NCBI RefSeq assembly: GCF_000384395.1
Contig: NZ_ARWE01000001.1
Coordinates: 62,001-126,000, forward strand
DNA length: 64,000 nucleotides
DNA from: Geopsychrobacter electrodiphilus DSM 16401
GTDB taxonomy: Bacteria > Desulfobacterota > Desulfuromonadia > Desulfuromonadales > Geopsychrobacteraceae
Direction: 5' to 3'
Made by a program: the position numbers and the translations under genes. The notes under the pieces were generated by a model, which was given only the letters and a program-made list of their open reading frames with translations, did no database searches and had not been told where the DNA came from. Below, in pieces: positions 1 to 11,685 of this stretch; position 1 is the stretch's first letter; each line of letters starts with the position of its first letter.

Positions 1-651
1 ATCCGAGTTGCGGATATCGATCCAGTGGTTGGTCATTGCACCGCGTCCGAAAGTGGCCGCCAAACTGGCAACCGTGGCGGAGTGTCATATTCGCGCCTGG
101 TGTTCGATATAGACCAGACCCCAGCTGCGCAACATCTTCTGCAGCAGGTAGCATTCTTCGTTGTCGAGGGCCGCGCTGCCGACCGAAGCGATGGCGTCGG
201 TGCGGTTGACGACCTGTCCCTTGGCGTTCTGCTCCATGAAAGAGGCGTCACGCGTAGCCTTGATGCGGTCCGCCACCTGATCGAGGGCCCAGTCCCAGGA
301 GACGGTCTTCCATTCTTTTGAGCCCTTGGCGCGGTACATCGGCTCGGTGATCCGTTTCGGGTTGTCGCGCAGTTGGAAGACCGAGGCGCCCTTGCTGCAC
401 AGGGTGCCGAGGTTGATCGGGTGATCCGGGTCCCCCTCTGTGTTGATCACTTCCCCGCTGCGCGAATGAATGATTATACCGCAACCGACGGCACAGTAAG
501 GGCAAATGGTGGTGGTCTCCTTGGCGTATTGAATCGCCAGGGGACCGGCCGCTGCGGCTTCGGCTTCAGCAGCTGACAGGCCAATGCCGAGGATTGACCC
601 CGCCACAGCAGACCCGGAAAGCTTGAAAAAGCCACGTCTGTTTAGATGCAT
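1..651 (-). CDS. Formate dehydrogenase alpha subunit, selenocysteine-containing, N-terminal part (runs off window)
   Basis: Catalytic molybdopterin subunit of a periplasmic formate dehydrogenase (FdnG/FdoG-like), oxidising formate to CO2. Seen: a Tat signal near residue 5 (RRGFFKL) followed by a hydrophobic stretch; a [4Fe-4S] motif CPYCAVGC with a downstream CSKG cysteine; and the stretch DNEECYLLQKMLRSWGLVYI typical of the family. The frame meets TGA at 85-87 (codon 189) and then continues as HSATVASLAATFGRGAMTNH, which is the conserved sequence after selenocysteine in FdnG-type enzymes. TGA is therefore read as Sec and the gene is still open at position 1. A good AGGAGG site precedes the ATG. 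The C-terminal part and any Fe-S or cytochrome subunits lie outside the window. Confidence 0.95.
57..80 (-). promoter_or_regulatory. Putative bacterial SECIS hairpin following the Sec TGA
   Basis: On the minus strand, four nucleotides after the TGA, CCGCCA pairs with TGGCGG over a 12-nt loop containing GGTTGCCAGT. Bacterial SECIS elements sit inside the reading frame just downstream of UGA and carry a GGU-type apical motif bound by SelB. Position and fold fit; binding is inferred. Confidence 0.6.
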
Positions 652-659
652 CTGATAAA

Positions 660-665
660 CCTCCT
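660..665 (-). promoter_or_regulatory. Ribosome binding site of the formate dehydrogenase gene
   Basis: A perfect AGGAGG on the minus strand lies 8 nt before the ATG at 651-649 and fixes that start. Confidence 0.75.
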
Positions 666-757
666 TTGCCTAGGGAAACGACTCGTAGCGCCCGTATGGA
701 GAGACATGAAATTTACAGGATCATCGCGGCACAGCCGCACAACAACACATGAGCTAA

Positions 758-775
758 GCGCAATTTATATACCAG
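758..775 (-). promoter_or_regulatory. Candidate sigma54 (-24/-12) promoter for formate dehydrogenase
   Basis: The minus strand reads CTGGTATATAAATTGCGC. GG (772-773) and GC (760-761) are exactly 10 nt apart, as sigma54 promoters require, and TGG and TTGC are intact, although the rest of the -24 box is degenerate. The predicted start near 748 leaves a leader of about 97 nt. A sigma54 activator gene is divergently encoded next door. The match is partial, so this is a prediction. Confidence 0.5.
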
Positions 776-962
776 CGTTTTGATTTGAGAATTTATCTTT
801 AATTAACGGCAGGTTAGCTCCAAGTATCTGTAATATCCATATTTTTGATACGCCTTTTGTTGTATACATCCTTCCCTTACGCTATGTTTGTTGGGTAGAA
901 AGTATCCATGGTGGTTGGTCTTGGGTTTCGTTTTAAAACAGCGCATCAGCGCCTTCAACGAA

Positions 963-2336
963 ATGGATTTCATGGACGGACGTATATATATCTGCGATGA
1001 CGAAGTCGGCATGCTGCGATATCTCAAAAAAATGCTGACAAGCTGGGGCGCCGAGGTGGTGACCTTTGAAAACCCCTTGAGCCTGCTCGAGAGTCTGAAG
1101 AACACTGCGACCGGGGTAGATCTGCTGCTGCTCGACATCAAGATGGCCGAACTCGACGGACTGGAGACGCTAACGCGCGTACATGGCTTGCGTCCTGAAC
1201 TGCCGGTGGTGATGATGACCGGGCACGGCAGCATTGAATCTGCGGTTGAGGCGATGAAGCTGGGGGCGCGCAACTATCTTACCAAACCTTTCCCGCAGGA
1301 GCAGCTGCGCGCGGTGGTCGAACAGGCGCTGCAGCGCGAGAAGTTGCTGGCCGAAAATCGCAGTCTCAAGCAACAGCTGCAACAGCAGAATCAGACCGAC
1401 CAGATCGTTTTCAAGAGCGCGGCCTTTGCCGAGGTCTATGATCTGGCGATGCGCGTGACCGGGGTCGATTCGCCGCTGTTGATTCTTGGCGAGAGCGGCT
1501 CGGGCAAAGAGTTGATCGCACGCGCGGTGCATTTTCACAGCCCGCGCAGTCAGGCACCGTTTTTGGCGATCAACTGTGCGGCGTTGACCGAAACCCTGCT
1601 TGAGAGTCAGCTGTTCGGGCATATGAAGGGTGCCTTTACCGGGGCGCAGCAGAGTCATAAAGGTCTGCTCGCAGCGGCTGAGAACGGCAGTTTGTTCCTG
1701 GATGAAGTCGGGGAGTTAAGTCCGGCCTTGCAGGCCAAGCTGCTGCGCGTGCTGCAGCAGGGGGAATATCTGCCGGTCGGGTCAACCCGGCCTCAGCAGG
1801 CGAATGTGCGCTTTATCGCCGCGACCAATAAAAACCTTGAACAGGAGGTCGCTGCCGGGCGCTTTCGCGAAGACCTGTTTTACCGCCTCAATGTCATCTG
1901 CCTTGAGCTTCCTTCTTTGCGTCAGCGCCCGGAAGATATCGAACCGCTGATTGAACATTTCCTCGACAAAATGGCCGCCCGCCTCGGCCAACCGCGCAAA
2001 CAGCTGAGTGCCGAACTGCTGCAGCTGCTTTGCAGCTATGACTGGCCGGGCAACGTCCGCGAACTGGAAAATATCATCGAGCGCTGTGTGGTGCTGGCCA
2101 AAGGCAAAACCCTCACCCCTGAGCAGTTGCCGGCCAAATTTCGCTCCGAACCACAGCCGGTTGCCACACAGCTCCCCTCTTTCAGTTTGCGCGATGCCGA
2201 GCACCTGCAGGTGCGGCGGGCGTTGGAGGAGACCGGCGGCAACAAGAGCCGCGCCGCCCTCCTGTTGGGGGTGACACGCAAGACCCTTGACAAGAAGATT
2301 CGCGATTTTGCGCTGAACCCCGAGGGATCGAGATGA
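963..2336 (+). CDS. Sigma54-dependent response regulator, NtrC/AtoC family
   Basis: Cytoplasmic transcriptional activator of 457 aa. Domains seen: receiver (acidic D12-D13, phospho-acceptor D58, conserved K108 in TKPF); AAA+ domain with Walker A GESGSGKE (about 176-183), the sigma54-contacting GAFTGA loop (about 223-228) and Walker B LFLDEVGEL; and a Fis-type helix-turn-helix near the C-terminus (RAALLLGVTRKTL). The ATG at 963 is chosen because the receiver begins directly after it; ATG 972 and TTG 888 are alternatives, and no start has a strong ribosome site. The stop overlaps the next start (ATGA), so it is co-translated with the binding protein and kinase. It probably activates a sigma54 promoter; the divergent formate dehydrogenase promoter is the nearest candidate. 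Confidence 0.93.
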   Translation: MDFMDGRIYICDDEVGMLRYLKKMLTSWGAEVVTFENPLSLLESLKNTATGVDLLLLDIKMAELDGLETLTRVHGLRPELPVVMMTGHGSIESAVEAMKLGARNYLTKPFPQEQLRAVVEQALQREKLLAENRSLKQQLQQQNQTDQIVFKSAAFAEVYDLAMRVTGVDSPLLILGESGSGKELIARAVHFHSPRSQAPFLAINCAALTETLLESQLFGHMKGAFTGAQQSHKGLLAAAENGSLFLDEVGELSPALQAKLLRVLQQGEYLPVGSTRPQQANVRFIAATNKNLEQEVAAGRFREDLFYRLNVICLELPSLRQRPEDIEPLIEHFLDKMAARLGQPRKQLSAELLQLLCSYDWPGNVRELENIIERCVVLAKGKTLTPEQLPAKFRSEPQPVATQLPSFSLRDAEHLQVRRALEETGGNKSRAALLLGVTRKTLDKKIRDFALNPEGSR

Positions 2337-3541
2337 TTCTCCGCCCTCTGCTGATGCTGTTGCTTTACCTGGTGGTCATCCCCGGCGGGAGGTCGAATGC
2401 GACTGCTGCAGACCAGCCTGAGATCCGCCTGGGCATGTCGACGGTGCTGAGTGGCCCCGCCGCTGAGCTGGGGCTCGAGATGCAGCGCGGGGTGCTCGCG
2501 GCGCTTGAACAAATTAATCGGACCGGTGGTTTTCAGGGTCGCCAGCTGCGGCTGATCACCTATGATGACGGCTATGAGCCGGCGCGTACCGCGCCGAACA
2601 TGCATCGCCTGCTCGAAGAGGATCACGTCCTGGCGGTGATCGGGAATGTCGGGACCCCCACCGCGATCGCCTCCCTGCCCCAGATTAGGGCGCAGCAGAC
2701 CCTCTTCTTTGCGCCGTTCTCCGGCGCCGGCGGCCTGCGTCGCATCCCGCCGGAACGCTATGTGATTAATGTGCGCGCCAGCTACGCCGAAGAGATCACG
2801 CTCATGGTTGATGCCCTGGTCGAAGGCGGTGGTCTGCGGCCCGAGGAGATCGCTTTTTTCACCCAGCGCGATGGTTATGGTGACGCCGGATACGTCGGCG
2901 GCTTTGCCGCCCTTAAGCGCCATGGTCTGCAGAACGAAACACAGGTGCTGCATGTCCGCTACCGGCGCAACACCCTGGCGGTCGAAAATGCCCTGGCCGA
3001 TCTGCTGCTGGCCGATCCGCCGCCGCGGGCTCTGATCATGGTCGGCGCCTATGCGCCCTGCGCGAAATTTATCCGGCTTGCACGCCAGTCCGGGTTCGAC
3101 GCCCTGCTGCTGAATGTCTCCTTTGTCGGGAGTTCCGCTCTGGTCCGTGAACTGGGCTCCGCCGGTGAGGGGGTGGTGATCACTCAGGTTGTGCCACATC
3201 CCCTCGAGAGTCAGTTGCCGCTGGTGCGCGATTATCGCGCCGCCTTGAAAGTCCATGATCAACAGCCGCCAAGCTTTGTCAGTCTCGAAGGATATTTTGC
3301 CCTGCGCACCCTGTTGGCCGGGCTGGAGAAGGCCCCCGAACCGCTGAATCGCGAAACCCTGATCGATGGCCTGGAGCATTTGGGGCGCTTTGACCTGGGT
3401 CTGGGGACGGCGCTTCAGCTCACGAGCGAAGACCATCAGGCCAGTCATCATGTCTGGCCAACCTGGGTAAAAAACGGCAGGGTGGTCTCAGCCAGCTGGG
3501 CAGAGATTGTCCGCGGTCTGTCGCAACGGAGTGTGCCATGA
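2333..3541 (+). CDS. Periplasmic ligand-binding protein (branched-chain amino acid / Peripla_BP_6 type)
   Basis: 402 aa with an N-terminal signal peptide (hydrophobic to about residue 22). The mature part begins EIRLGMSTVLSGPAAELG, the usual opening of LivJ/AmiC-like type I binding proteins, and keeps YDDGYEP and later family blocks (FAPFSGAGGLR, FFTQRDGYGDAGY). No permease or ATPase gene is nearby. It is instead wedged between a response regulator and a sensor kinase with 4-bp overlaps on both sides. This points to a sensory role, presenting a periplasmic ligand to the kinase in the manner of TorT with TorS, rather than transport. The ligand is unknown; small carboxylates or amino acids are usual for the fold. 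Confidence 0.85.
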   Translation: MILRPLLMLLLYLVVIPGGRSNATAADQPEIRLGMSTVLSGPAAELGLEMQRGVLAALEQINRTGGFQGRQLRLITYDDGYEPARTAPNMHRLLEEDHVLAVIGNVGTPTAIASLPQIRAQQTLFFAPFSGAGGLRRIPPERYVINVRASYAEEITLMVDALVEGGGLRPEEIAFFTQRDGYGDAGYVGGFAALKRHGLQNETQVLHVRYRRNTLAVENALADLLLADPPPRALIMVGAYAPCAKFIRLARQSGFDALLLNVSFVGSSALVRELGSAGEGVVITQVVPHPLESQLPLVRDYRAALKVHDQQPPSFVSLEGYFALRTLLAGLEKAPEPLNRETLIDGLEHLGRFDLGLGTALQLTSEDHQASHHVWPTWVKNGRVVSASWAEIVRGLSQRSVP

Positions 3542-5898
3542 CGCCACTCAAGCCGGGGCGCAAGATCACCCTGCTGGCCTGGGTGCTGGTCATGATCGGC
3601 TTGCTGGCAGGGGTACTGAGCAATGGCCTGGTCGGCTGGACCCTCCACAACCTGAACCGCGAAGGGCAGCAGCTGGCCGAACAGGAATCCCGTTTGAGTC
3701 GCGGCGCCGAAAAACTGCGACACTTCACGCGTCAGACCCAGACGGCTCTGGGCGATCAGCTTCAACTGGATCTTGGGCCGGTACACGAAACCTTTCCGGA
3801 GACAGATCTGGAACAACTCCGTACCGAACTCGTGGCGACGCCGGAGATTGATGATCTGGCCCGCCTCAGCAATGAACTGGGGCAACGTAGCTACAACCTG
3901 CGTAGGCTCTGGCAGCAGGCTGTTGCCTGGCGCGAAAATTATCAGCCGATCTTTCTGGATAACCGCGAAAAAAAGAGCCTGCTGCGGGTGCGCTCAGAGT
4001 TGCAGCAGCTCCGCGCCGAGCTGGAAATCTATGAAGGGCGGCAGCGTCTGCAGGAAGCCTTGACTATTCGCCAGTGGCGGAAGTCCGGACCCGCTGTGGC
4101 TGAAAAGCTGGCGGCCGAACTGCTCAGCTATCGCAACCAGACGTGGCGGCGCAGCCTCGACCGGATCAACACCGAGCTGGTCGATCTGTCGCGGATGGTT
4201 GAGATTCTGGCCGGTGAGGATCGTCTTGATCAGCTGGCGGACATGAAGGACAACCAGCTGAAGCCGAGTCTGGAGCGGATGACCCATGAACTCGCACGCT
4301 TGCGCACCGCCGCGCAGATGGGACCAGACGAGTTGCCGCTCAGACTGCTGGAGGCGCTTAATGTCGCGCTCTTCGGCGAGGGCTATGTCATTTTTGAGGA
4401 GTATCAGACGATCCGGCCGGGGAAGGGCGGGCTCTACCTGCTGTCCGAACGCCGCCTCGAGCTGGTTCAGCAGCGCGAGGCTCTGCAGGGAGAGGCACGA
4501 ACCGAGTTGCAGCAGCTCGAATCGCTCTATCCCCCGTTGGCCAGTCTGACCCAGAAACGCAGCCGCGCGCTGGCCCGTCAGGCCGACTTGAGCTTGAGCA
4601 ACGGGGCTTTGAATCTGTTCATGATCAGTCTGCTCACCCTCGCCGGCTTTCTGGGTCTCGGTCTCTTGATCATCCGCATGACTCAGCAGCAGTTGGCGGC
4701 ACTCGCTCAGTTGCGCCGCCAGAACGAACTGATTCTGGCTTCGGCCGGCGAGGGGGTGATGGGGGTTGATCGCGACGGCGCGACCATCTTTATCAATCCA
4801 GCCGCCGCCAACCAGCTCGGGTGGCAAGATCAGGAACTGGTCGGCCGTCATTATCAGGAGATTCTGGGCCAGCCTGACCAGGGGGATCTTCAGGCCGATT
4901 CCATTGCCCAGGTCCTGCAACAGGGGAACAGTTACCGCAGCGACATCGATTTTTTTCATCGGCGCGACGGCAGCCAAATGCCTGTGGCCTGTGCCGTGAC
5001 ACCCCTGCAGAACGAACTTCAGGAGATCGAGGGGGCGGTCGTCACTTTTATGGATATCAGCGATCGCAAGGCCGCTGAAAAGACCCTGCGCCGTTATTAT
5101 GATCGCCTCGCCGAACAGGAGCGGGCGCTGGCCGAGTTGAACAAGTATCTCGAGCAGAAGGTCGTGGAGCGGACCCTGCAGCTCGAAGCGAAGAGTAAGC
5201 AGCTGATAGCAACTCAGGAGGAGCTGGCCCATGCCGAAAAACTGGCGGCGATTGGTTCGCTGGCCGCAGGGGTCGCGCATGAAATCAACAATCCGAGTGC
5301 GATCATTCGCGGGAATATCGAAATCCTCGAGGCTGGGCTGCCAGCTAACCACATGAGCCGTGAAGAGACTTCTGAAATCTTACGTCAGATCGAGCGGATC
5401 ACGCTGATAACCGGCAATCTGCTCAGCTTTGCGCGCAAGCAGCAGCTGACCATCCGCAGCTTCCCCTTGAACGCATTGCTCGAGGAGGTTCTCGAGCAGG
5501 TTGGCCATCAGGTTTCGACCAGGGGCATCGAAATTCAGACCGATTTGGCCACCCAACTCCCTGACTGTCTGGCCGATGCTGATCGACTGCGGCAGGTCTT
5601 TAATAATCTGATCGTCAATGGCCTTCAGGCGCTGAACGGTCGAGGCTTTCTGCGGGTCAGTAGCCGCCTTGAGGACGGGAGTTTCAAAGTGAGGATCGCC
5701 GATAACGGCCTGGGAATTCTGCCCGAGAATCGCGGCCAGATCTTCCACCCCTTCTTTACCACCAAAACGGACGGCACCGGCCTTGGCCTCTCGGTTTCTT
5801 ACGGTATCGTCGAGGCACATGGCGGAAGTATCAGTGTCGAGAGTGAGCCGAGGGAGGGGAGTTGTTTCACTATCAGCCTGCCGCAGCATGAACATTAA
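3538..5898 (+). CDS. Membrane sensor histidine kinase with large periplasmic helical domain and PAS domain
   Basis: 786 aa. TM1 about 11-33, then roughly 320 residues rich in Leu, Gln, Arg and Glu that look entirely helical (TorS-like bundle), and TM2 about 359-381. Next come a PAS domain (about 395-505), a coiled coil, an H-box GVAHEINNP with the phospho-acceptor at H581, an N-box (FNNLIVNGLQAL), and ATP-lid motifs DNGLGI and GTGLGLS. The NtrB-like H-box suits a sigma54 activator partner. There is no receiver or Hpt domain, so it should phosphorylate the co-encoded regulator directly. The start overlaps the binding-protein stop by 4 bp. The periplasmic domain probably docks the binding protein (inference). 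Confidence 0.92.
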   Translation: MTPLKPGRKITLLAWVLVMIGLLAGVLSNGLVGWTLHNLNREGQQLAEQESRLSRGAEKLRHFTRQTQTALGDQLQLDLGPVHETFPETDLEQLRTELVATPEIDDLARLSNELGQRSYNLRRLWQQAVAWRENYQPIFLDNREKKSLLRVRSELQQLRAELEIYEGRQRLQEALTIRQWRKSGPAVAEKLAAELLSYRNQTWRRSLDRINTELVDLSRMVEILAGEDRLDQLADMKDNQLKPSLERMTHELARLRTAAQMGPDELPLRLLEALNVALFGEGYVIFEEYQTIRPGKGGLYLLSERRLELVQQREALQGEARTELQQLESLYPPLASLTQKRSRALARQADLSLSNGALNLFMISLLTLAGFLGLGLLIIRMTQQQLAALAQLRRQNELILASAGEGVMGVDRDGATIFINPAAANQLGWQDQELVGRHYQEILGQPDQGDLQADSIAQVLQQGNSYRSDIDFFHRRDGSQMPVACAVTPLQNELQEIEGAVVTFMDISDRKAAEKTLRRYYDRLAEQERALAELNKYLEQKVVERTLQLEAKSKQLIATQEELAHAEKLAAIGSLAAGVAHEINNPSAIIRGNIEILEAGLPANHMSREETSEILRQIERITLITGNLLSFARKQQLTIRSFPLNALLEEVLEQVGHQVSTRGIEIQTDLATQLPDCLADADRLRQVFNNLIVNGLQALNGRGFLRVSSRLEDGSFKVRIADNGLGILPENRGQIFHPFFTTKTDGTGLGLSVSYGIVEAHGGSISVESEPREGSCFTISLPQHEH

Positions 5899-8949: not shown

Positions 8950-11685
8950 ATGATTGGAGGTAAAGGCAGTTTTCAGGCAGGAAGCGTTTTGAAACGTGCT
9001 CTCAAGGCGTATTTCAGGTTGTGGCTGACACTCTTTATCCTGGTGCTGTCGGGCTGCGGTGGCGGTGGCGGCGGAGGGGTTGGAAACGATCTGGTTTATA
9101 CCGGTCGCCCCACTCAGGCCAGTCTTACCAGCGTCAACGCTATTGAGATGGCGCTGGGGGCCTACAATGGTGGACCAGATATGGCCAGTCTTTCCTTGCC
9201 GGGTGCGAGCCTCCAGGCTCTCACCAACGGCAGAGTTCCCCGGCAATCCGGGTTACTGCAGTATGGCGAGCAGATTCGCCGCCTGGCAGACAAAATAACC
9301 TTCACCAGCCAGACAGCCGCGACCCCCCTCAGCATCCAGACGGCCACAAATACCATCCTCGGCCCCTGTGGTGGCAGCGCAGTCCTGACCCTCAATGTGG
9401 AGACGACGAACGGAATCTTTAATGGAAGCCTGAACTATGCCAACTACTGCGAAGAGGGGATCACGGCTGCAGGGAATCTCAGTCTTTCAGGCAGGGTTGA
9501 TCTGGTGACTCTGGAGCCTCAGCAGATGACGATTTCGTTCAAGCTGCTGACGCTCTCCAACACCGATCAATCCGCAACTATCAGCGGAACTATGGCGTTC
9601 AGCTATGCCTTGCCAGTCGAGACCTCAACCCTGAACTATCTTCTGCGGGATGATGCTTCGGGCAAGATTTGCCGAATTGAGAACTACATTATCCTCACAA
9701 CGGTCGGGGTTAACCAGACCGAGACGCAATATCAGTCAGGCCGCTATTTTCAGCCAGATCTAGGTTATGTTGATCTTGCCAGCAGTTCGTCTTTCGTTGA
9801 AGACCCGACCGCCCTCGGCCCTTCGAGTGGAGAGTTACTGCTCAGCGGGGCGAATTTGAGCAAAACCTCCCTGCGGGCCATTGCCTCCAACGCTTATGAG
9901 GTCTCGACCGATACCAATGGTGACGGAACCTTCGACTGGAACTCAGGCCTGTTGCATTGGAGCAGTATCAATGCTGCCCCCCTCGCCGATGCCGGTCTGG
10001 ATCTGAACGTTGAAACAGGCACACAGGTGGTTCTCGATGGCAGCGGCAGCAGCGATCCCGAAGGTGGCGCCCTGACCTACAGCTGGAGCTTGGTCTCCAA
10101 ACCGTTCGGCAGTTCGGCACTCCTGATTAATCCAACCCTGGTTAATCCCAGGTTCACAGCTGATTACGACGGCAGCTACATGTTAAGTCTCGTCGTCAGC
10201 GACGCGACTATGACCAGCACAGCGGACATGGTCACAGTCACGGCGGCAACGTCAAATTACGCCCCGGTCGCTAACGCCGGATCCGACCAGAATGTTACGA
10301 CCGGGAGTTTGGTCAGTCTTGATGGAAGCGCAAGCACTGACGCCGAGACCAGCCCTTTGAGCTACAGCTGGAGCTTCGCCTCAGTTCCGTCCGGCAGCAG
10401 TGCCCTGCTCTCGGATCCCACCGCCGTAAATCCCAGCTTTACCGCTGATCTGGATGGTCTCTATACCCTGAATCTGGTTGTTAATGACGGGCTGCTGAGC
10501 AGTGCGGTGGACAGCGTGGTGGTGCGGGCCTCGCCGTCAGTGTCAGCAATTCAGCTGCTCATCGACAGTGCCACCGATGGTGAGACAATCCAGGTCGCGC
10601 CGGGAACCTATTATGGGACCATCGATTTTAAGGGCAAGGCGATCAGGGTTGAGAGTCTGAGCGGTCCGGCCGTGACTATCATCGATGGCAACCTGGCTGG
10701 TCCGGTGGTTAGCTTTATCACCGGCGAAGGTGCTTCTTCGATTCTTAGTGGCTTCACCATCCGCAATGGCAGAGCCAGTGACGAAGGTGGCGGGGTCAGC
10801 ATCCAGAGCGCTTCACCGACCCTGACCAACAACATCATCACCATGAATCAGGCCTGCACCGGTTCCGGAATCGCCATCGGCTTCGGTTCACCTCTCATTC
10901 AGGGGAACAGGATCTCGGACAACGTTCAGGCCGGGTGCAGCGGCGGCATTGGCGGTGGAGGGATCAGTCTTCGAGGCAGCGCCGCCGCGCAAATTCTGGA
11001 GAATACTATAAGCAATAATTCCACCGGCAGCAGTGGCGGCGGAATTTCTCTCTTTGCCGCCGGTACTCCTATCATCAGGGGTAACATCATCAGCGGCAAC
11101 CAGAGCGCCAGCGGCGGCGGGATAGAACTAGTGAATTTTTCGGACGCGTTGATTGTTCAGAACCTGATATTCGGCAATACCGCCGGGAGCGGCGGTGGTA
11201 TCCATTGGCTCGTGCCCTCGGGAAACCGAGGTCCTCTGCTGGTCAATAATACAATCGCGGATAATGACAGTCTGCAGGGGTCAGGAATCTATGCCGACGG
11301 CTATGACGTCCAGACGCGCCTGGTCAATAATCTTATAATCGGCAAAAGCGGCCAGACCGCCGTCTACTGCGGTGATTTCAACGACCTGAACCCGCCGCTC
11401 TTCGATTTCAACAACATCTACACCCAGGGCGGCCTGGCCTATGGCGGATTTTGTACCGCCCAGACCGGTCTCAATGGCAACCTCTCGCTGGCTCCTCTCT
11501 TTGTCGCACCCGCCAGCGGGAACTATCATCTGCACTCCAGCTCGCCGGCCGTTGATGCCGGTGACAACAGCGCACCGGATCTGCCAGCAACCGATCCGGA
11601 TGGTGATCTGCGTATCCTGGATGGCAACAATGACAGCAGCGTGATTATTGATATGGGCTGGGACGAATATGCCGCGCCGCTTTAG
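8950..11685 (+). CDS. Large surface lipoprotein with PKD-like domains and a right-handed beta-helix
   Basis: 911 aa. Signal peptide with lipobox LSGC, then a poly-Gly spacer. Residues of about 20-340 are an unrecognised domain. Next come two tandem PKD/K319-type Ig-like repeats of about 90 aa (each starting A-P-ADAG or A-P-VANAGSDQNV and containing LDGS-S-D-E and YSWS). From about 535 to 850 a parallel beta-helix follows with NxI/GNxI-type coils (GGGISL, NTISNN, GNIISGN, NNTIADN), and a C-terminal DAGDNS...DPDGD...DMGWDEY block. It is probably anchored in the outer membrane and exposed, for polysaccharide or surface binding. A GGAAGG-like ribosome site lies close upstream. No catalytic residues are assignable. 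Confidence 0.75.
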   Translation: MIGGKGSFQAGSVLKRALKAYFRLWLTLFILVLSGCGGGGGGGVGNDLVYTGRPTQASLTSVNAIEMALGAYNGGPDMASLSLPGASLQALTNGRVPRQSGLLQYGEQIRRLADKITFTSQTAATPLSIQTATNTILGPCGGSAVLTLNVETTNGIFNGSLNYANYCEEGITAAGNLSLSGRVDLVTLEPQQMTISFKLLTLSNTDQSATISGTMAFSYALPVETSTLNYLLRDDASGKICRIENYIILTTVGVNQTETQYQSGRYFQPDLGYVDLASSSSFVEDPTALGPSSGELLLSGANLSKTSLRAIASNAYEVSTDTNGDGTFDWNSGLLHWSSINAAPLADAGLDLNVETGTQVVLDGSGSSDPEGGALTYSWSLVSKPFGSSALLINPTLVNPRFTADYDGSYMLSLVVSDATMTSTADMVTVTAATSNYAPVANAGSDQNVTTGSLVSLDGSASTDAETSPLSYSWSFASVPSGSSALLSDPTAVNPSFTADLDGLYTLNLVVNDGLLSSAVDSVVVRASPSVSAIQLLIDSATDGETIQVAPGTYYGTIDFKGKAIRVESLSGPAVTIIDGNLAGPVVSFITGEGASSILSGFTIRNGRASDEGGGVSIQSASPTLTNNIITMNQACTGSGIAIGFGSPLIQGNRISDNVQAGCSGGIGGGGISLRGSAAAQILENTISNNSTGSSGGGISLFAAGTPIIRGNIISGNQSASGGGIELVNFSDALIVQNLIFGNTAGSGGGIHWLVPSGNRGPLLVNNTIADNDSLQGSGIYADGYDVQTRLVNNLIIGKSGQTAVYCGDFNDLNPPLFDFNNIYTQGGLAYGGFCTAQTGLNGNLSLAPLFVAPASGNYHLHSSSPAVDAGDNSAPDLPATDPDGDLRILDGNNDSSVIIDMGWDEYAAPL

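Follow-up and report, generated by a model that had tools for sequence, protein, structure and literature searches.

A predicted three-component sigma-54 system with a TorS-type sensor kinase, divergent from a selenocysteine formate dehydrogenase operon in Geopsychrobacter electrodiphilus

We analyzed 64,000 nt of the Geopsychrobacter electrodiphilus DSM 16401 genome (NZ_ARWE01000001.1, positions 62,001 to 126,000, forward strand), and refer to this whole stretch as the window. Near its start, a trio of genes encoding a sigma-54 activator, a periplasmic binding protein, and a sensor histidine kinase is transcribed divergently from fdnG of a selenocysteine formate dehydrogenase (Table 1). Two 4-bp ATGA overlaps join the trio: the binding-protein gene starts at 2333 and the activator gene ends at 2336, and the kinase gene starts at 3538 and the binding-protein gene ends at 3541. 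A sequence-only reading of this DNA had proposed this architecture, including the large periplasmic domain of the kinase, and the coordinates, Pfam matches, and transmembrane prediction agree with it. We found no tRNA in the window, and no Rfam family matched it at gathering thresholds.

Table 1. Features of the trio-fdnG locus, in window coordinates
Feature	Position	Strand	Basis or remark
fdnG, 5' part; catalytic subunit of membrane-bound selenocysteine formate dehydrogenase	1..651	-	continues beyond the window as fdnG-fdnH-fdnI
In-frame TGA, selenocysteine codon (EHQARI-U-HSATV)	85..87	-	translation, comparison of loci
Sigma-54 site TGGTATATAAATTGCG, GG 773-772, GC 761-760	759..774	-	107 bp upstream of fdnG start
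Palindrome GTATAC within GGATGTATACAAC, probable activator-binding enhancer (predicted)	862..867	.	centre 90 bp upstream of sigma-54 site
GGATACTTTCTACCC, imperfect palindrome, possible second enhancer site	893..907	-	126 bp upstream of sigma-54 site
NtrC-type sigma-54 activator: receiver, AAA+ with GAFTGA, Fis-type HTH	963..2336	+	Pfam, translation; listed ORF begins at 888
Periplasmic binding protein, Peripla_BP_6 (LivJ-like family)	2333..3541	+	Pfam
Sensor histidine kinase: TM1, periplasmic domain, TM2, PAS, HisKA, HATPase_c	3538..5898	+	Pfam, TM prediction
Kinase periplasmic sensor domain, mostly helical, TorS-like	3622..4617	+	AlphaFold2 model and Foldseek

The activator is an NtrC-type enhancer-binding protein in its domains: Pfam found Response_reg, Sigma54_activat (E 2e-66), and HTH_8, and GAFTGA is present in the translation. 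We prefer ATG 963 over the listed TTG 888 as its start codon because 8 of 11 relatives align only from query residue 24 or later, residue 26 being ATG 963; the choice is not settled, and similarity starts at residues 1, 16, and 17 in loci L039 (Geothermobacter hydrogeniphilus HR-1), L040, and L048, respectively. The binding protein matches Peripla_BP_6 (E 1.4e-50) and also Peripla_BP_5 in Pfam, and its N terminus resembles a signal peptide by eye. Its three NCBIfam matches, to branched-chain amino acid and urea binders, all lie below cut-off. The closest solved relative is 4kv7 (E 3.8e-117), for which a literature search returned potassium-channel papers. In the kinase, Pfam found PAS, HisKA, and HATPase_c, and neither Pfam nor NCBIfam scans found a receiver or phosphotransfer domain. 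Transmembrane segments are predicted at residues 10 to 28 and 361 to 379, leaving about 332 periplasmic residues between them.

The divergent operon encodes FdnGHI. Read through its TGA as selenocysteine, FdnG has 1021 residues and scores 1400 bits against TIGR01553, formate dehydrogenase-N alpha (NCBIfam, cut-off 814); in Pfam, fdnH carries Form-deh_trans and fdnI is a cytochrome b561.

No Pfam family matched the periplasmic part of the kinase above cut-off. When 52 members of this sensor domain were searched against Pfam at E 0.1, we saw only scattered single matches among the 25 of 35 families listed, and a PDB sequence search with the 52-member profile matched coiled coils and designed bundles weakly (E 0.0024 at best). 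An AlphaFold2 model of kinase residues 1 to 395 (pLDDT 92.4) was compared by Foldseek with a copy of the PDB (350,542 chains), and the TorS-TorT complexes 3o1j, 3o1i, and 3o1h ranked 1 to 3 (probability 1.00; TM 0.71 to 0.73 by target length). The E values against TorS were 0.004 to 0.006, none below 0.001; next, at E 0.007, came an unrelated ciliary coiled coil, but its TM was 0.24. The chemoreceptor-type version of the sensor domain found TorS at ranks 1 to 5 (E 1.9e-5 to 2.8e-4; TM 0.59 to 0.61 by target). The link to TorS comes from the structure models, not from the PDB sequence search, and in these models the periplasmic domain has a TorS-type sensor fold.

The sequence-only reading had named both TorT-TorS and LuxP-LuxQ as parallels. 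The first held up by fold. TorT-TorS-TorR of Escherichia coli, which serves TMAO respiration and controls a molybdoenzyme of anaerobic respiration, likewise combines a binding protein with a kinase that has a helical two-bundle periplasmic domain. It differs from the trio in its other parts: TorS is a hybrid kinase with a receiver and a phosphotransfer domain, the trio kinase has neither, and the trio regulator is NtrC-type, unlike the OmpR-type TorR. The NCBIfam torS model scores 115 bits on the kinase part of the trio protein (cut-off 676.5), and the binding protein is not of the TorT family in Pfam or NCBIfam. The second parallel is a loose analogy. LuxP of Vibrio also signals as a binding protein to the kinase LuxQ, but Pfam at E 0.001 found no LuxQ-periplasm match in the trio kinase, and we dropped a LuxPQ reading on that account. 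The comparison that the sequence-only reading drew with E. coli formate hydrogenlyase is not supported as worded; FhlA is not a response regulator. In NspS-MbaA of Vibrio cholerae, a binding protein, the PotD-like polyamine binder NspS, signals to a c-di-GMP enzyme; in this it resembles those versions of the trio's sensor part that have a GGDEF-EAL output. According to an excerpt of PMC9602780, sensor kinases activated by binding proteins, such as BctC-BctE, are widespread, with about 10 characterized kinase examples. BctE is stimulated by its binding protein, as we propose for the trio; BctC is of the TctC family and targets its own transporter (PMC9602780, same excerpt), whereas the likely target of the trio is a respiratory enzyme reached through sigma-54. 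Our literature search found no description of this trio system; RpoN control of Geobacter fdnG has already been published.

We then looked at gene order in other genomes. A search of genome contigs confirmed 127 candidate stretches, of which 80 were kept; the window, 11 of these 80, and 6 further genomes make up 18 distinct trio loci. Duplicate contigs in two genome collections, recognized by their length and gene arrangement, were merged (L120 with L038, L155 with L039, L122 with L040, L124 with L041, L123 with L042, L127 with L047, L160 with L048, L125 with L049, L156 with L062, and L162 with L060). The outcome was the opposite of trios lying away from formate dehydrogenase genes: all 18 adjoin fdnG and diverge from it, and in all 18 the binding-protein gene adjoins the kinase gene. 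The selenocysteine TGA sits at the identical place in 17 of the 18, that is, in every locus that reaches the codon (L048 ends short of it). In a survey of the class, the receptor domain occurred in 25 of 277 genomes at E 1e-30. In all 16 genomes where the frame is shorter and of kinase type, the trio adjoins fdnG (the L158 contig ends before the kinase core), and the four flanks that we read around the 956- to 998-residue receptor frames, found in 9 genomes, held no fdnG. These locus counts are not independent, since most of the loci come from related Desulfuromonadia. At the level of genes, the link between trio and formate dehydrogenase is well supported.

The fdnG promoter varies with the trio. 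The GG-N10-GC site that the sequence-only reading placed before fdnG is conserved in related loci: it lies 68 to 116 bp before fdnG in 16 of the 18, and at 276 bp in L154. It is absent from L048, where both trio and fdnG are present. First-order Markov sequences served as shuffles throughout, and only 0.65% of those of the window region had an equally good site in that slot. As controls we took genomes whose fdnG is more than 60% identical to that of the window and that have no receptor match; there were 12 (one fdnG being partial), and we read the promoter in 7, including L195 and L196, whose contigs end 0.6 to 1.5 kb upstream. None of the 7 has the site; with the trio it is present in 16 (or 17) of 18 loci (Fisher p 7e-5 or 2e-5, with kinship ignored). 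Of the 18 trio intergenic regions, 15 contain the palindrome GTATAC (shuffle mean 0.84, maximum 5 of 18); the exact sequence is missing from L039, L048, and L154 and present in one trio-less fdnG region, L194. Sequences related to the imperfect palindrome were found in L038, L041, L042, and L047. From this distribution, the GTATAC palindromes are likely the enhancer of the activator. The earlier proposal that the trio drives formate dehydrogenase expression stands as far as this association goes; the control itself is predicted.

The nearest relatives of the trio suggest where its output came from. The 18 trio activators were monophyletic (0.905) within a clade holding 8 activators of Cache-type fdn systems (1.0), and the 19 own-genome paralogues included, of 34, fell outside; trees were midpoint-rooted, and the kinase tree covered 17 of the 18 trio loci, with the cut L158 left out. 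The Cache-sensor fdn system of Desulfuromonadia resembles the trio in lying divergent from fdnG with a sigma-54 site, and the relatives were beside fdnG in 8 of 9 loci fetched from this group. Its activators are 52 to 62% identical to those of the trio, its kinase cores 49 to 56%, and its fdnG is more distant, about 52 to 58% identical to that of the window. Unlike the trio, it has sCache_3_3 as sensor (4 of 4 kinases scanned), lacks a binding-protein gene between those for activator and kinase, and carries upstream palindromes that look different by eye (GGGTCA..TGACCC). In 3 of 4 Cache-type kinases there was also a LuxQ-periplasm match below cut-off, which the trio kinase lacks. By sequence, the activator and kinase core of the trio belong to this formate dehydrogenase lineage, and the difference between the two is a sensor swap. 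In Geobacter sulfurreducens, an excerpt of PMC2725144 reports an RpoN promoter of fdnG by primer extension, with an activator gene upstream. This gene may be a member of the Cache-type system.

The sensor part has a different distribution. Away from fdnG, the binding protein and TorS-like domain are also coupled to hybrid kinases, c-di-GMP enzymes, and chemoreceptors, and so make up a portable cassette for sensing. Among 73 binding proteins, the next gene downstream encodes a chemoreceptor in 27, a kinase in 20, the trio kinase in 10, a GGDEF protein in 8, and another protein in 4, with none on the strand in 4; these classes were assigned from short motifs and, in the case of the trio, from our own locus list. 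Pfam confirmed the class in 10 of 10 representatives (4 MCPsignal, 3 GGDEF, and 3 kinases, one with two receivers). The trio binding proteins do not form one clade in their tree. Neighbors of 19 cassettes outside formate dehydrogenase contexts share no metabolic theme by eye.

We asked what the alignment of these 73 proteins, from which shorter or masked proteins were dropped, says of the ligand. The amino acid pocket of LivJ we take to be Ser79, Thr102, Tyr202, and Glu226, with Glu226 binding the ammonium group. Ser79 aligns with T108 and Tyr202 with Y240 (73 of 73 each), Thr102 with G131 (72 of 73), and Glu226 with S263 (73 of 73), so that the LivJ pocket is not kept. An alpha-amino acid is an unlikely ligand because the ammonium-binding Glu is replaced. 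Our leading guess is a non-amino-acid small molecule, possibly formate or some other acid; the sequence-only reading had proposed a small acid. The ligand need not be formate, since the family serves outputs other than fdnG and 68 residues are at least 97% identical across formate dehydrogenase, chemoreceptor, GGDEF, and other kinase contexts. Such conservation outside formate dehydrogenase contexts argues against formate as the obvious ligand. It fits instead an environmental molecule of a general kind, to which chemotaxis and c-di-GMP systems would respond as well and which would act through the same wiring, with formate dehydrogenase as one response among many; T108, Y240, and S263 are among the residues kept in every context. 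We regard this as a serious possibility, a little short of an even one. The version with this activator, however, was found only beside fdnG among the loci surveyed, and its Cache-type relatives are also there; their shared position suggests a signal bearing on formate oxidation. Our tentative picture is that one cassette reports one ligand to kinases, hybrid kinases, c-di-GMP enzymes, and chemoreceptors across distant phyla, and that in Desulfuromonadia it took the place of the Cache sensor in a formate dehydrogenase two-component system to give a sigma-54 switch, with formate or a small acid as a possible ligand.

Could the main targets of the trio lie elsewhere, its place beside fdnG being inherited gene order? 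Trio and fdnG could descend together in genomes that are mostly related, but the sigma-54 site tracks the trio rather than fdnG. Two loci, L045 (a Desulfobulbaceae MAG) and L046 (Desulfurivibrio), pair the trio, site, and palindromes with an fdnG only 48% identical to that of the window. In its own 4.24-Mb genome, the exact pattern GTATAC-N78-108-GGYAY-N6-TGC has a single match, at this fdnG promoter, the reversed control likewise having one. We consider inherited order very unlikely. It is more improbable still that the binding protein is part of an ABC transporter, placed between regulators by chance, and we rejected a LIV-type importer: the listed ORFs around the trio include no permease or ATPase gene by eye, the LivJ pocket is altered, and the next gene downstream encodes a kinase, GGDEF protein, or chemoreceptor in 65 of 73 cases by motif.

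Taken from sequence comparison and structure models, the trio is quite probably a dedicated three-component control system of the divergent formate dehydrogenase operon. The binding protein would capture a small periplasmic molecule and dock on the kinase at its helical sensor domain, in the way that TorT docks on TorS. Next, the kinase would phosphorylate the activator, which would bind the GTATAC sites about 90 to 130 bp upstream and drive RNA polymerase-sigma-54 at the fdnG promoter. Activator and kinase core would descend from the Cache-sensor system, the input having been exchanged for the binding protein and TorS-like domain. The comparison of the two offers a clear case of a regulator that swaps its sensor yet retains its output and the type of its target.

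Formate is one of the main electron donors passed between anaerobes. To our knowledge, few formate sensors that face the cell exterior have been described. One is the dCache domain of Campylobacter jejuni Tlp1, according to an excerpt of PMC10294657. If our picture is right and the ligand is formate or a small acid, the binding protein would be a periplasmic formate sensor. The trio makes a compact, conserved, and testable switch, with one soluble protein, a close relative already solved, and an enzyme operon as its read-out. Identifying the ligand would probably reveal as well the signal of the chemoreceptors of Halomonas and related bacteria, of Magnetococcales c-di-GMP enzymes, and of Planctomycetes kinases.

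The 4.24 Mb genome is one contig, of which the window covers 62001-126000; judged by its nearest named relatives, the bacterium is Desulfuromonadales-like. Two ATGA overlaps, at 2333-2336 and 3538-3541, join the activator, binding-protein and kinase genes of the trio, as the sequence-only reading had it when it claimed 4-bp overlaps among the three. Transmembrane segments of the kinase are predicted at residues 10-28 and 361-379, leaving about 332 periplasmic residues, and a Pfam scan of this part gave no family above cut-off. Divergent from the trio, fdnG carries TGA in frame where selenocysteine belongs and passes the cut-off that NCBIfam sets for formate dehydrogenase-N alpha; beyond the window it is followed by fdnH, fdnI and genes for a DsbA-like protein, a MauG-type di-haem peroxidase, FdhE and an FdhD-MobA-MobB fusion.

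Features of the trio region and its surroundings (L008, own-genome stretch reaching upstream of the window)
Feature	Stretch	Position	Strand	Basis
NtrC-type activator	window	about 963-2336	+	Pfam domains
Peripla_BP_6 binding protein	window	2333-3541	+	Pfam
Histidine kinase	window	3538-5898	+	Pfam
Lipoprotein-like protein, 911 residues, PKD-like repeats, beta-helix-like C-terminal part	window	8950-11685	+	by eye
DsbA/thioredoxin-fold protein	L008	11529-12125	-	Thioredoxin_4, E 3.9e-28
FdhD + MobA-like + MobB domains in one 653-residue protein	L008	7561-9522	-	

In the DsbA-like gene a TGA (L008 11969) stands at the expected active-site Cys (FIDFQ-U-PHC), and likewise, among the loci scanned, in L040, L041, L049, L062, L157, L158, L159 and L194. 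This protein is a probable selenoprotein partner of the formate dehydrogenase next to the trio.

The sequence-only reading had suggested surveying gene order for the trio next to formate dehydrogenase genes. Scanned with the binding protein, the genome_contigs collection encoded a relative in 127 stretches, from which the analysis retained the best 80 loci. In 11 of the 80, the binding protein adjoins a closely similar activator (55-79%), and fdnG is divergent from the activator in all 11. Next to the binding protein in the other 69, whose flanks are short in many cases, tblastn found no fdnG; one of these loci (L088) has a distant fdnG match (29%) some 5 kb past the receptor gene. Of 277 genomes surveyed in the class, 25 have the kinase N-terminal domain at E 1e-30. 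Kinase-type frames occur in 16 of the 25, and in 16/16 the fetched flanks put the whole trio beside fdnG, counting L158, whose kinase is cut by the contig end. After duplicates were merged, fdnG adjoined the trio in all 18 distinct loci, mostly from related genomes, which bears out the proposed association. TGA stands at the Sec position in each of the 17 whose stretch reaches that codon. In a Desulfobulbaceae MAG and Desulfurivibrio (L045 and L046), fdnG is only 48% identical to that of the window; despite this, they have similar regulators, sigma-54 site and palindromes. Four loci (L049, L126, L157, L159) have a second, more distant fdnGH pair past the trio kinase, so that the regulators are flanked by two formate dehydrogenases; in L157 only fdnH of this pair falls inside the stretch.

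In 16/18 trio loci, a sigma-54 site (TGGYAY-N5-YTGC) precedes the fdnG start by 68-116 bp; the site of L154 is at 276 bp, and none was found before fdnG in L048, which has both trio and fdnG. In the window, 0.65% of Markov shuffles gave an equally good site in the same slot. None of seven related fdnG operons that lack the trio has a site of this type (Fisher p 7e-5 for 16/18 or 2e-5 for 17/18, uncorrected for ancestry). One single-contig genome (L194) has an fdnG 87% identical to that of the window, without trio or site. For Geobacter sulfurreducens, PMC2725144 reports that the fdnG promoter mapped by primer extension depends on RpoN and that an activator gene is located upstream of fdnG.

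GTATAC occurs upstream in 15/18 trio loci (1000 shuffles: mean 0.84, maximum 5) and in 1/7 trio-less operons (L194). Its centre lies 90-94 bp before the sigma-54 site in eight loci; copies at 100-134 bp occur in the same eight or others, and L126 has one at 70 bp. A comparison of all 64 six-base palindromes over the first 12 regions put GTATAC at the top (10 regions; next, 3); in 200 shuffled sets, the leading palindrome averaged 4.2 regions and never exceeded 8. The exact combined GTATAC and sigma-54 pattern matched the own genome once, at the window fdnG promoter; the reversed control likewise matched once.

We modeled kinase residues 1-395 with AlphaFold2 (51 relatives, pLDDT 92.4). The top three Foldseek matches in the PDB were TorS-TorT complexes (probability 1.00, E 0.004-0.006, TM 0.71-0.73 by target length). 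Because no PDB match fell below E 0.001 and unrelated coiled coils ranked next with similar E-values (TM at most about 0.3), we also modeled the domain as it occurs in chemoreceptors, using 15 other sequences (pLDDT 86.4). Its top five matches were all TorS (best E 1.9e-5, TM 0.59-0.61 by target), described in PMC8534201 as two stacked four-helix bundles. In profile comparisons, the trio-kinase domains matched other kinase- and GGDEF-type domains at E 5.5e-66; their match to chemoreceptor-type domains spanned 220 columns (probability 96.8, E 2.3e-10).

The next gene encodes a chemoreceptor (27), a kinase (30, including the trio kinases) or a GGDEF protein (8) for 65 of 73 aligned binding proteins, by short motifs that Pfam confirmed in 10/10 representatives scanned. 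Pfam identifies the L063 receptor as a hybrid kinase with two receivers and the L055 receptor as a GGDEF-EAL protein. The receptors have two main transmembrane segments roughly 300-355 residues apart. This gene order fits a sensing pair, not a transporter. In E. coli LivJ, carboxylate binding falls to Ser79 and ammonium binding to Glu226. Ser79 and Tyr202 correspond to Thr108 and Tyr240, each in 73/73 binding proteins, and Glu226 to Ser263 in 73/73; 68 residues are at least 97% identical across the alignment. This conservation and the Glu226 replacement favour one ligand common to the 73 proteins and argue against its being an alpha-amino acid. A close relative has a solved structure (4kv7, E 3.8e-117), for which our literature search found no paper. 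Nor did titles and abstract openings in the full-text literature, with subscription journals mostly outside its coverage, yield a paper describing the trio system. In our model of the trio, we infer ligand, docking and phosphorylation.

In 8/9 loci fetched, a more distant fdnG group (group ii, about 52-58% identical to the window fdnG) has as neighbours an activator and a kinase core that are 52-62% and 49-56% identical, respectively, to their trio counterparts. These kinases carry sCache_3_3 in 4/4 scanned, and their loci have no binding protein. Upstream of group-ii fdnG (L198, L202-L205, L207-L209), several regions show by eye GGGTCA..TGACCC-like palindromes in the place that GTATAC occupies in trio loci, and some contain GTATAC too. 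These different palindromes suggest that the activators' DNA specificity changed together with the sensor.

The closest own-genome paralogues of the trio are more remote (activator 45%, kinase core 41%). In the activator phylogeny (FastTree), those of the 18 trios form one clade (0.905) nested in a clade with eight Cache-type activators (1.0), outside which fall 19 own-genome paralogues. The kinase-core tree has a joint clade (0.88; 17 trio, 8 Cache-type) with the two types intermixed. So the fdn regulators form one lineage that exchanged its input module, perhaps repeatedly, because the trio proteins are not one clade in the binding-protein tree.
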